From NCBI RefSeq assembly GCF_000243075.1, contig NC_016745.1, positions 239,501 through 303,500 on the forward strand: a stretch of 64,000 nt of DNA, in the 5' to 3' direction. Numbering within the stretch: the first letter of the stretch is position 1; every line of letters starts with the position of its first letter. The stretch comes from Oceanimonas sp. GK1 (GTDB lineage Bacteria; Pseudomonadota; Gammaproteobacteria; Enterobacterales; Aeromonadaceae). Below the pieces are notes generated by a model, which saw only the letters and a program-made list of their open reading frames with translations, did not search any database and was not told the origin of the DNA. The position numbers were made by a program, and so were the translations under genes. This document shows positions 45,285-50,928 of this stretch, in pieces.

Positions 45285-46943
45285 TTAGTCTTCCCGGCTG
45301 AAAAGCGCCTCGATGAATTCGGAGGCATTGAAGGGACGCAGATCATCGATTTTCTCACCCACGCCGATATAGCGAATGGGAATGCCGAACTTGTCGGCCA
45401 CCGCGAAGATAACGCCGCCCTTGGCGGTACCGTCCAGCTTGCTCAGGGTAATACCGGTAATGGGCACGGCGTCGTTGAAGATTTTGGCCTGACTGAGGGC
45501 ATTCTGGCCGGTGCCCGCATCCAGGGTGAGCATGATTTCGTGAGGCGCCTGAGGGTCGATTTTCTGCATCACCCGCACGATTTTCTTCAGCTCTTCCATC
45601 AGGTGCGCCTTGTTTTGCAGGCGACCGGCGGTATCGGCGATCAGCACATCCACCTTGCGGGCCTTGGCGGCTTCCACAGCGTCATAAATCACGGAAGCGG
45701 CATCGGCACCGGTGTGCTGGGCAATCACCGGAATATGGTTGCGCTCGCCCCAGACCTGCAACTGCTCCACCGCCGCGGCGCGGAAGGTATCGCCGGCGGC
45801 CAGCATCACCGACTTGCCCTCGGCCTGGAACTGGCGGGCCAGCTTGCCGATGGTGGTGGTCTTGCCCACGCCGTTGACGCCCACCATCAGAATGACAAAA
45901 GGCCGGTGCTCAGTATTAATCTCCAGCGGCTGATCCACCTTGGCGAGGATCCCGCCCATTTCCTCCTTCAGCAGCTCATACAGGGCTTCGCCGTCCTTGA
46001 GCTGCTTGCGGCTGGCCTGCTGGGTCAGGTTGTCGATGATCGACAGGGTGGTTTCTACCCCCAGATCCGCGGTGAGCAGCTGGGTCTCCAGCTCTTCAAA
46101 CAGATCGTCATCGATTTTCTTGCCCCGGAACAGGCCAAAAAAGCCCGAACCCAGGTTTTGCCGGGTTTTGAGCAGGCCGGCCTTGAGGCGGGCAAAAAAG
46201 CCTTTTTTGGGTGCTTTTTCAGCCTGCGCCGCGTCTTCGGCAGCCTGACGCTCCTGCTCTTCCGCTTCCCGAGCCAGACGTTCCTGCTCGGCGGCTTCCG
46301 CTTCCGCCGCCAAACGGGCTTCTTCTTCCACCGCCTGCCGGGCTTCTTCCTCGGCGGCCAGCCGCGCTTCTTCTGCCGCCTTGGCTTCCGCGGCCAGACG
46401 AGCTTCTTCCGCGGCCTTGGCTTCCGCCGCCAGCCGCGCTTCTTCCGCGGCCTTCGCTTCCGCCGCTAAACGAGCTTCTTCCGCCGCTTTCGCTTCGGCG
46501 GCTAAACGAGCTTCTTCCGCCGCCTTCGCTTCGGCGGCTAAACGAGCTTCTTCCGCCGCTTTCGCTTCGGCGGCCAAACGGGCTTCTTCCGCCGCTTTCG
46601 CTTCGGCGGCCAAACGAGCTTCTTCCGCGGCCTTCGCTTCGGCAGCCAAACGGGCTTCTTCCGCCGCTTTCGCTTCGGCGGCCAAACGGGCTTCTTCCGC
46701 CGCTTTCGCTTCCGCCGCCAAGTGAGCTTCCTCTGCCGCCTTGGCTTCGGCCGCCAGGCGGGCTTCTTCCGCTCGGGCCTCGGCTTCCTGTTGGGCTAAC
46801 TGTGCTTCCACTTCCGCGCCATGACCGGCTTCCGCTTCCGATGCTACCGCGTCATGGGGTGTTTGTTGTTCCTGTGCTTCTTCCGGCTGCTCGTCTTTCT
46901 TTTTGCCAAAGCCCAGCCAGGAGAAAAAACCTTTTTTCGCCAT
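45285..46943 (-). CDS. ftsY: Signal recognition particle receptor FtsY
   Basis: 552 residues. The C-terminal NG GTPase (about 255-552) has GVNGVGKTTTIGKLA, DTAGRLQNKAHLMEEL and SKLDGTAKGGV. It receives SRP-ribosome complexes at the membrane. The acidic N-terminal A domain is unusually regular: 11 near-identical 12-residue units (AAEAKAAEEARL) that should form a long charged helix. The ATG at 46943 starts with the membrane-targeting KKGFFSWLGFGKKK; a second copy-like KKGFFARLKAG precedes the N domain. Confidence 0.95.
   Translation of the reverse strand: MAKKGFFSWLGFGKKKDEQPEEAQEQQTPHDAVASEAEAGHGAEVEAQLAQQEAEARAEEARLAAEAKAAEEAHLAAEAKAAEEARLAAEAKAAEEARLAAEAKAAEEARLAAEAKAAEEARLAAEAKAAEEARLAAEAKAAEEARLAAEAKAAEEARLAAEAKAAEEARLAAEAKAAEEARLAAEAKAAEEARLAAEEEARQAVEEEARLAAEAEAAEQERLAREAEEQERQAAEDAAQAEKAPKKGFFARLKAGLLKTRQNLGSGFFGLFRGKKIDDDLFEELETQLLTADLGVETTLSIIDNLTQQASRKQLKDGEALYELLKEEMGGILAKVDQPLEINTEHRPFVILMVGVNGVGKTTTIGKLARQFQAEGKSVMLAAGDTFRAAAVEQLQVWGERNHIPVIAQHTGADAASVIYDAVEAAKARKVDVLIADTAGRLQNKAHLMEELKKIVRVMQKIDPQAPHEIMLTLDAGTGQNALSQAKIFNDAVPITGITLSKLDGTAKGGVIFAVADKFGIPIRYIGVGEKIDDLRPFNASEFIEALFSRED
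46360..46755 (-). repeat. Tandem 36-bp repeat in ftsY
   Basis: Eleven full 36-base units in frame plus partial units at the edges, differing mainly at third positions. Each encodes AAEAKAAEEARL, one unit having H for R. Confidence 0.9.
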
Positions 46944-47075
46944 GCTTGCCAATACTCGCTGTTGTTCGGGACGATTAGGACTGGCCGTGATTCGGCCGCT
47001 TCATTAGAATATCCGCCCCTTAATGGGTGCAAAACCGCCTTATACTAGCACTTTATTGAAAGACGGCGAAACGAG

Positions 47076-47979: not shown

Positions 47980-48091
47980 GGAACGCACATTAACTGCGCA
48001 GGCTGCCAGCCTGCATCTGCGCCCGCAAGGGCGCTTGATATGTTGAGGGTTGCCGCTTCGCGCCAAATGGCGGGCAAACTGCCCGCGTTCC
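47980..48091. repeat. Cloverleaf-like cluster of hairpins
   Basis: An outer inverted repeat GGAACGC (47980-47986)/GCGTTCC (48085-48091) encloses three perfect stems: GCAGGCT-GCC-AGCCTGC (47998-48014), GCGCCC-GCAA-GGGCGC (48019-48034) and GCGGGCA-AAC-TGCCCGC (48070-48086). No T tract follows on either strand. It may be a REP-like element or a structured RNA; only one copy is seen here. Confidence 0.55.
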
Positions 48092-48111
48092 ATATGATCC
48101 GTACCAGCTGG

Positions 48112-48426
48112 CTATAACTCTTCCGGGCCGCCGCCGCACCGCCAGCAGATCTCAAAGCTGGCGTCGTTTTCTTCTCCACACCGCCCGCAATGCCAGGTTC
48201 GATGGCTTTTCTGCTGATAGGCCTGCACAAACTCCCGCGCCCGCGGCCAGTCCGGTGCCTGCACCAGCAGGGTTACCCGGGCCACGTCCATCGGCAGTTC
48301 ACCCAGGGCGCCTGCCAGCGCCTCGCCTTTCAGTTGCACCGCCACGCCACGGCTTTCCAGTGCCCCCTTGAGGGTATGGGCCTCCAGGCTGTTGGCCGCT
48401 TCAAACACCGGTCTCCAATCGCTCAT
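48112..48426 (-). CDS. DUF2007 protein with C-terminal zinc ribbon
   Basis: 104 residues. The N-terminal DUF2007 domain (PVFEAANSLEAHTLKGALES, residues 6-70; PII-like ferredoxin fold) is followed by a RanBP2-like zinc finger CGRCGEENDASFEICWRC. A signal-transducing or protein-interaction role is only proposed for the family. GGAAGAG precedes the ATG. It begins 26 bases after the CsrB-like RNA terminator, so it may depend on read-through or on a promoter inside that RNA. Confidence 0.85.
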   Translation of the reverse strand: MSDWRPVFEAANSLEAHTLKGALESRGVAVQLKGEALAGALGELPMDVARVTLLVQAPDWPRAREFVQAYQQKSHRTWHCGRCGEENDASFEICWRCGGGPEEL

Positions 48427-48451
48427 TCATTCTCTTCCGAACACGCAATAG

Positions 48452-48484
48452 AAAAAGGGGGTGACGTCATGTCACCCCCTTTTG
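48452..48484 (-). terminator. Terminator of the CsrB-like RNA
   Basis: AAAAGGGGGTGAC-ATGAC-GTCACCCCCTTTTT on the minus strand, 13-bp stem plus T tract. Confidence 0.92.
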
Positions 48485-48724
48485 GGTTGTCGTATGGTTA
48501 GTCCGTAAACCAAGTTGCTCCCTGCAATCCCTGACAATACCTTTTCCTTAAGGTGATCCTCTTCCCGTTCCGTCGGTGCGTCCTATGGTCATCCTGACCG
48601 CAGTTCATCCTGAGCTGCTTGACTGTCTCCGTCCTGGGAGGTGTCCCTTACCGCGTCCTGCGGTGTTCCTTTCGCCGTTCCTGGCAGCCGGTCTTTCCTG
48701 ACCAACTTCCCTTGCTCCTTGCCC
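48452..48724 (-). ncRNA. csrB: CsrB-family regulatory RNA (CsrA/RsmA sponge)
   Basis: About 273 bases in a 585-base gene-free gap. The minus strand carries 19 GGA motifs, many as CAGGA or AAGGA and several in small hairpin loops, e.g. GGTCAGGATGACC and CCGCAGGACGCGG. This spacing and density is the hallmark of CsrB/CsrC/RsmZ RNAs, which titrate the translational regulator CsrA. A sigma70-like promoter (48730-48757), a strong terminator (48452-48484) and an upstream UvrY-like palindrome (48895-48912) complete the gene. A 107-codon frame on the plus strand overlaps but has no recognisable product. Confidence 0.88.
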
Positions 48725-48729
48725 TTCTA

Positions 48730-48757
48730 ACTATAGGGAACTTTGATTTTGCCTCAA
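48730..48757 (-). promoter_or_regulatory. Sigma70-like promoter of the CsrB-like RNA
   Basis: -35 TTGAGG (48757-48752), 16-base spacer, -10 TATAGT (48735-48730). Transcription would start near 48724. Confidence 0.65.
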
Positions 48758-48894
48758 GTCACCGACCGGAGATAAACCCATGCCTCATCGTACGTCATAA
48801 TATGCATATAGAATACAAGCGTTTGTTTATAAACAAGAAAGTGAGATTATGCTCAGTATATTCCGCAACCGAAAACGCCTTTTCCCACACACCA

Positions 48895-48912
48895 AGTAAG
48901 AGATCTCGCACA
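48895..48912. promoter_or_regulatory. UvrY/GacA-type binding palindrome
   Basis: AGTAAGAGATCTCGCACA matches 15 of 18 positions of the known csrB-upstream palindrome TGTAAGAGATCTCTTACA. It lies about 180 bases upstream of the predicted start, comparable to the distant UvrY site of E. coli csrB. The rest of 48760-49000 is A/T-rich and could bind IHF. Confidence 0.65.
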
Positions 48913-49012
48913 AGGCTACGGGACATTATCGCCACCCACTGACCCGACAACAAAAGGGTGGCGCGTCTGCCCGGGCTTCCTTAGGATAATCCAGTCTATT
49001 GAGGGAGGTTTT

Positions 49013-49870
49013 ATGCACAAACTGGAATTACCGTCGCCACTGGTAGAAGCCCAATGGCTGGCTGATCACCTGGACCATCCGGATCTGGTGGTGCTGGATG
49101 CCAGCTGGCACATGCCCGCCACCGGCCGCAATGGCCTGGAAGAATGGCGACAGCAACGTCTTCCCGGTGCCCGCTTCTTTGACTTTGACGGTCGCATCAA
49201 GGATCAGCATACCAGCCTGCCCCATATGCTGCCGGACGAAACCCTGTTCGCCCGGGAAGTCTCCGCACTGGGCGTCAGCAACCACCAGACCATTGTCATC
49301 TACGACAGCCTGGGCCTGTTTGCCGCGCCCCGGGCCTGGTGGATGTTTCGTGCCATGGGCCACGAGAACGTAGCCGTGCTTAACGGTGGCCTGCCCGCCT
49401 GGCAACAGGCCGGTCTGCCCCTGGAACAGGGGGAACCCGCCGCCGTTGAGCCGGGCCGGTTTACTGCCGAGCGCCAGTCTCACTGGATAGCCGACGCCAC
49501 CGCGGTGGAGCAGGCGCTGCAGCAGGACGGTTACCGGGTGCTGGATGCCCGCAGCCGGGAACGTTTCAGCGGCGCCGCCGCCGATCCCCGCCCTGGCGTG
49601 CGCGCCGGCCACATGCCCGGCGCCGCCTGTCTGCCCTTTAACGAGCTGCTGAAAGACGGTTACCTGCTGCCCGCCGAGCAATTGCGCGCCATCCTGTCCC
49701 CCCTGGTGAAGGCCGAACAAAAACTGATCTGCAGTTGCGGCTCGGGCGTGACCGCCGCCATTCTGGCCCTGGCCGCCGAGCTGGCCGGGCATCACCATAT
49801 CGCGGTGTACGACGGCTCCTGGACCGAATGGGGCGGCTCGGCCCATCTGCCGGTGGAAAAAAACGCATAA
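49013..49870 (+). CDS. sseA: 3-mercaptopyruvate sulfurtransferase
   Basis: 285 residues, two rhodanese domains (about 15-140 and 165-280). The active-site Cys242 is in LICSCGSGVTAA; the CGSGVT loop is the mercaptopyruvate-type signature. Transfers sulfur from 3-mercaptopyruvate to thiols or cyanide. GAGGGAGG precedes the ATG. A terminator follows the stop. Confidence 0.93.
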   Translation: MHKLELPSPLVEAQWLADHLDHPDLVVLDASWHMPATGRNGLEEWRQQRLPGARFFDFDGRIKDQHTSLPHMLPDETLFAREVSALGVSNHQTIVIYDSLGLFAAPRAWWMFRAMGHENVAVLNGGLPAWQQAGLPLEQGEPAAVEPGRFTAERQSHWIADATAVEQALQQDGYRVLDARSRERFSGAAADPRPGVRAGHMPGAACLPFNELLKDGYLLPAEQLRAILSPLVKAEQKLICSCGSGVTAAILALAAELAGHHHIAVYDGSWTEWGGSAHLPVEKNA

Positions 49871-50316: not shown

Positions 50317-50928
50317 CTAGAGCCGTTTTGCCTTGTTATATGCATCTGCGCCCTTGGCGATCATGCGCAGCTGCAGAATCATGCGCTCCGCCAGTGCGGC
50401 ACGCTCTTCCTCGTTCATGTCCAGCGCATCGGCGCCGGCACTGAACACCAGCGTCACCATGGCCTGGGCCTGGGCCTCGGCATAGTCGCGGCTGGTATTC
50501 TGCTTCTCTTCCAGGTAGTCGGTGAGCTCGGCGGTAAAATGCTGGATCTCCCGGGCCACCGCCTGACGAAAAGCCGCAGAGGTGCCCGACCGCTCCCGCA
50601 ACAGCAAGCGGAACACGTCGGGACTGCTGTCGATAAATTCCATAAAGGTCTTTACCGAAATCTGAATCACACTGCCGCCGTCGGCAATGCGCTGGCGCGC
50701 CTGGCGCATCAGCTGGCGCAGGGTCAGCCCACCCTCGTCCACCAGCGTCAGCCCCAGCTCTTCCATGTCCTTGAAATGACGGTAAAAGGACGTTGGCGCC
50801 AACCCCGCTTCCCGGGCCACCTCGCGCAGGCTGAGACTGGAAAAACTGCGCTCGGCGCTCAGCTGACGAAACGCGGCTTCCACCAGGGACCGCCGGGTTT
50901 TTTCTTTTTGTTGCGCGCGAACGCCCAC
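50317..50928 (-). CDS. fabR: HTH-type repressor of unsaturated fatty acid synthesis
   Basis: 203 residues, TetR family. HTH ([19 protein letters not shown], about 32-52) and helical ligand domain. FabR senses acyl-ACP/CoA saturation and represses fabA/fabB. The yijD neighbour supports the specific name. The start ([20 protein letters not shown]) fits the family. Confidence 0.93.

Follow-up and report, generated by a model that had tools for sequence, protein, structure and literature searches.

The question raised by this locus was whether a gene-free gap in the window (the whole stretch of 64,000 nucleotides analysed here) encodes, on its minus strand, a CsrB-type RNA that sequesters CsrA, as a preliminary description made from the letters alone had proposed. 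The gap, given there as 585 bases, was found to span 586 (48427–49012) between the DUF2007 start codon at 48426 on the minus strand and the rhodanese start at 49013 on the plus strand. The transcript, its signals and its neighbours are as follows:

48112..48426, minus strand: DUF2007/DUF7577 gene, starting 25 nt past the csrB T run on the same strand
48452..48483, minus strand: predicted intrinsic terminator with a 13-bp stem, the loop ATGAC and a T run, from the MFE fold
48452..48723, minus strand: predicted CsrB small RNA of about 272 nt with 19 GGA motifs, 11 of them in hairpin loops (RF00018 match, fold z −4.24)
48730..48757, minus strand: sigma70-like promoter TTGAGG-16-TATAGT, 9/12 to consensus
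49013..49870, plus strand: rhodanese-domain (sulfurtransferase-like) gene, PF00581, divergent upstream neighbour

A covariance search with the Rfam CsrB model (RF00018) gave a match at 48752–48447 on the minus strand with 83.1 bits (E 1.4e-20), which clears the curated gathering score of 71. At that score CsrB was the only Rfam family matched within the whole window, and among 14 control genomes RF00018 was matched in one, E. coli. The match starts 29 nt upstream of the RNA start at 48723, which was placed 7 nt past the −10 box. When the region 48000–49200 was searched at E up to 1, four weaker matches from the same clan were found to overlap CsrB; a snoRNA family also detected there (15.6 bits against a gathering score of 40) was taken as a chance match. 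No tRNA was found in the window by ARAGORN. Judged by its sequence, the minus strand almost certainly encodes a genuine CsrB RNA, and by analogy with characterized systems this RNA very probably soaks up CsrA.

Elsewhere in the window, a tandem array at 46351–46772 (36-base unit, 11.7 copies) was observed within an ftsY-like gene (45285–46952, minus strand) with SRP54 GTPase domains, where it yields a AEEARLAAEAKA-type repeat in the N-terminal part.

The GGA content agreed with the preliminary description, which had counted 19 motifs in about 270 bases: 19 were counted in 273 nt (48724–48452, minus strand), compared with 15 in the richest other 270-nt stretch on the same strand of the window and a maximum of 11 on the plus strand. 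Such a count might arise by chance in a spacer that is rich in purines but has no function, and dinucleotide shuffles of the RNA that kept its purine richness (n = 2000) already averaged 12.1 GGA, with 3 of the 2000 reaching 19. Of the longer motifs, 11 AGGA were observed (shuffle mean 3.4, maximum 10) and six CAGGA (mean 1.0, but with a shuffle maximum of 7). Several of the motifs had also been described as presented in hairpin loops, and in the MFE fold 11 of the 19 placed two or more of their bases in such a loop, which none of 150 shuffles equalled (mean 2.0, maximum 6); the mean unpaired probability at GGA was 0.79 compared with 0.53 in shuffles, and the fold energy was better than that of all 200 shuffles (z as listed above). 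Given the loop exposure and the family score, along with the conserved motifs and control region presented below, a spacer with chance matches is extremely improbable.

The CsrB RNA of the window was shown not to be the only one in its genome, which carries three CsrB loci with 83.1, 58, and 39.2 bits. The latter two (L002, G000:C1:876289-876583, and L003, G000:C1:1607222-1607507) both score below 71 and are therefore missed at the Rfam gathering threshold. The RNA of L003 seems to have a length of about 365 nt and to begin ahead of the Rfam match, which leaves out its 5′ part. The three copies are flanked by different genes: DUF2007 and rhodanese; D-Ala-D-Ala carboxypeptidase and 6-O-methylguanine methyltransferase; and a threonine-synthase-like gene and AstE-AspA. 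The CsrB of the window is thus an ordinary additional member of a well-known regulator family, and what is new is its description in this group of bacteria and the detection of its two sisters below the cut-off.

CsrB matches at E up to 0.001 were found in 49 of the 61 genomes searched; this survey used stricter filters, so that absences are soft. Within the genus, 58 matches from 23 genomes (including that of the window) fell into three groups by their flanking genes, group A with 22 genomes, group B with 20, and group C with 15, except for one weak match (G017, L104, 23.3 bits) that belonged to no synteny group and was excluded from the remaining 57. The copy in the window belongs to group A, and the sole genome of the genus without a group A copy is 84% complete (G008). 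When a tree was built from the 57 RNAs assigned to groups, each synteny group formed one side of a branch, with full support for group C (100/100) and with support for group A (86/83) and group B (91/95) that fell short of the tool's star. Since each synteny group has one branch, the three csrB copies look, from these sequences, like old paralogues that were not homogenised. In two genomes that are rated 100% complete (G004 and G014, with one and six contigs), only the group A copy was found (L024 and L025), with a poorer UvrY site of 11/18. A loss of the B and C copies in G004 and G014 is possible, although the survey used stricter filters.

Based on the neighbouring DUF2007 protein, the closest named records were four from Oceanimonas (73–85% identity), and all four contained CsrB above the gathering score directly before the DUF2007 gene, whereas none of the 12 named non-Oceanimonas loci among the 16 loci examined had csrB beside DUF2007 at that score. 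In genus g4 of the same family, one genome (G025) had csrB beside a match to the rsmD-like gene of the window (65% identity, PF03602 in both); for the best loci of the other four g4 genomes (L007–L010), no match to the window's neighbours was found within the stretch compared. In three genomes of genus g5 (G026, G029, and G032), csrB was located near a match to the TetR-like gene of the window at 50317–50928 (72–75% identity), with TetR domains in both the window's gene and that of G026, and G032 additionally contained the rsmD-like gene. These shared neighbours in g4 and g5 suggest that locus A may be older than the genus. In G032, two CsrB matches were seen in tandem, about 500 bases apart (L127).

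Comparison of the 22 group A sequences showed that 16 of the 19 GGA motifs were kept in at least 20 of them, and the remaining three in 15, 10, and one. On average, a GGA triplet was conserved in 19.6 of the 22 sequences compared with 15.1 for other triplets, the terminator end being left out. The preliminary description had named a lack of conservation of these motifs in related genomes as a result that would refute a CsrB RNA, and with 16 of 19 conserved the proposal is not refuted on this point. RNAalifold predicted 65 consensus pairs from the 22 orthologues (alignment A2), of which eight showed a kept double change, including three in the terminator (columns 259/283, 261/281, and 264/278). 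The covariation term was small (−2.87 of −70.38 kcal/mol) and most of the consensus pairs were invariant, so that the support from covariation is modest.

Both ends of the predicted transcription unit were recovered as previously proposed. The sigma70-like promoter lies at 48757–48730, and its TTGAG and TATA-T were invariant across 12 aligned group A loci. The terminator, described earlier as strong, does look strong, with a hairpin at 48483–48453 in which the stem overlaps the T run at 48456–48452. A scan for consensus terminators did not list this hairpin on the minus strand, and the overlap is the probable reason.

Upstream of the promoter, three further elements were recognized:

48816..48828, minus strand: IHF-like site AAACAAACGCTTG, 8/9 to consensus, downstream of the repeat and upstream of the promoter
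48881..48889, minus strand: possible second UvrY element TGTGGGAAA, 5 bp past the repeat, 7/9 to TGTAGGAGA
48895..48912, minus strand: UvrY/GacA-type inverted repeat TGTGCGAGATCTCTTACT, 16/18 to the UvrY site of E. coli csrB

The 18-base palindrome resembling a UvrY/GacA site was thus present as had been reported, but its score is 16/18 and not the 15/18 given at that time; compared with the looser TGTAAGN6CTTACA it scored 9/12. It is centred 180.5 bp upstream of the inferred CsrB start, a distance with an uncertainty of a few bases, since the start was derived from the −10 box. A UvrY-site match of at least 13/18 was found in 49 of the 57 loci of the genus (16/22 in group A, 18/20 in group B, and 15/15 in group C) and in none of 174 downstream control stretches; the best match was below 13/18 in the other six group A loci. 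The pattern TGTNNGNGATCTCTYANN occurred three times in the 3.5 Mb genome, once before each csrB, and not at all when read backwards. This pattern was built from the same three loci and therefore shows near-exclusiveness and not an independent discovery; a UvrY site of this form appears to be nearly private to csrB genes.

The 16 group A sites had two spacings, eight at 166.5–168.5 and eight at 178.5–180.5, which are about one helical turn apart. The start sites behind these spacings were apparently misplaced in group C, as well as in a few loci of groups A and B; when group C was recomputed, the repeat centre was placed at −166.5 or −167.5 in 14 of the 15 loci and at −125.5 in G011. The sequence TGTAGGAGA is the second UvrY element of E. 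coli csrB according to PMC4682653. A match of at least 7/9 to this element was detected in eight of the 16 group A loci examined and in none of the 33 B and C loci (single-position chance 0.0007), and these eight were the same eight that have the longer repeat spacing.

The IHF-like site was scored against the IHF consensus. Of the 42 A and B loci, 33 (17/22 in group A and 16/20 in group B) had a match of at least 8 at an offset of 73–76 relative to the repeat centre, and any 4-base offset window away from this position contained two matches at most. In group C, an IHF-like match at the A/B position was seen in one of 15 loci, and in eight of the 15 the two best matches included one on the reverse strand at offset 62 that scored at least 8 (hand count). 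The group C loci without a match at the A/B position recall the difference in IHF need between csrB and csrC of E. coli (PMC4682653).

The gene directly downstream raises the further possibility that CsrB doubles as a 5′ leader for DUF2007, so that UvrY-driven read-through would co-express the sponge and the small DUF2007/DUF7577 protein; such a role would add to the CsrB sponge explanation and not replace it. The DUF2007 gene was located on the csrB strand in all 22 group A loci, and its start codon lay 18–30 nt past the T run in 16 of them, whereas in the other six the gap was 43, 46, 73, 74, or 359 nt or was without a measured value. The csrB promoter was the only one listed by a promoter scan of 48420–48800, and within the 3′ region of csrB the top-scoring hexamer pairs averaged 8.5/12 compared with 7.9 in shuffles; by the scan and the hexamer pairs, nothing clearly beyond shuffles was found as a promoter of the DUF2007 gene's own. 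With a close gene on the same strand and no clear promoter of its own, read-through from csrB is possible. However, the csrB terminator looks strong, and a 9/12 pair overlapping it in the window (GTGACA-17-TCTATT, a score attained in 13 of 100 shuffles) leaves room for such a promoter. Moreover, all five g4 genomes carry DUF2007 on the csrB contig but roughly 17–22 kb from the nearer csrB. A literature search yielded no paper linking DUF2007 with CsrB. Taken together, we consider a leader function unlikely. Less likely still is the fuller scenario in which one csrB became the DUF2007/DUF7577 leader in this genus and BarA-UvrY drives both sponge and protein by controlled read-through of the terminator, a read-through that CsrA bound to the nascent transcript might adjust.

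The preliminary description had taken the RNA to imply a BarA-UvrY/CsrA circuit. A search of the genome (3.5 Mb, three contigs, 99.99% complete according to the tool) detected all three components: one csrA match (63 aa), uvrY (422 bits, cut-off 280), and barA (1216 bits, cut-off 890, in an open frame of 898 aa). The best match for a csrD-like gene had 635 bits, just below the cut-off of 663. No paper combining Oceanimonas with CsrB, or Oceanimonas with CsrA, was found in a literature search; for a genome near Oceanimonas, the present analysis documents the elements of a Csr circuit that includes three sponge RNAs.

In the proposed mechanism, BarA would phosphorylate UvrY, which would bind the inverted repeat at a distance of about 180 bp from the start, and DNA bending, for which an IHF-like site lies in between, would bring UvrY to the sigma70 promoter. 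Transcription would then yield the RNA of about 272 nt and end at the terminator hairpin, and the RNA's loop-exposed GGA motifs would bind several CsrA dimers, with release of the target mRNAs of CsrA. The two sister CsrB RNAs, whose control regions are similarly built, would act in parallel. The CsrB interpretation is supported by the Rfam score, the circuit genes, the E. coli-like order and spacing of the control region, and the conservation of GGA. Weighed against it were the mostly invariant pairs, the self-derived pattern, the poor UvrY sites in 6/22 group A loci, and the 3/2000 shuffles with 19 GGA. The sequences show the family match, the enrichment and exposure of GGA, the conserved control region, and the circuit genes, while CsrB transcription, its dependence on UvrY, and CsrA binding are expected by analogy with the E. 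coli, Shewanella, and Vibrio systems. For the CsrB sponge explanation as a whole, we estimate a probability of roughly 0.96.

The neighbours of csrB in E. coli differ from those in the window. The RNA itself resembles E. coli CsrB in its match to the RF00018 model, its GGA-loop architecture, and its terminator, but is shorter, with about 272 nt compared with the 356 positions of the model, and has 19 GGA motifs compared with 22 in E. coli CsrB, the latter number being from PMC11882849. The control region is also similar to that of E. coli csrB as described in PMC4682653, with a UvrY repeat at about −180 (centred at −183/−182 in E. coli), a second element 5 bp further on, and an IHF site between repeat and promoter; according to the same paper, IHF helps UvrY at csrB and not at csrC. 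In Shewanella oneidensis, CsrB1 and CsrB2 were reported to be BarA/UvrY-dependent and to contain many AGGA/ARGGA motifs and a TGTAAGN6CTTACA box (PMC3171408); the AGGA-type motifs and this type of box are shared with the window, but those RNAs of 420 and 421 bp are located in adjoining gaps split by a transposase gene, unlike the copies described here. The Vibrio CsrB/CsrC/CsrD RNAs (csrB1-4) generally number three per genome and are for the most part out-paralogues that occupy separate synteny groups, according to PMC6262261, and the three copies found here, which look like old and unhomogenised paralogues, resemble that arrangement.
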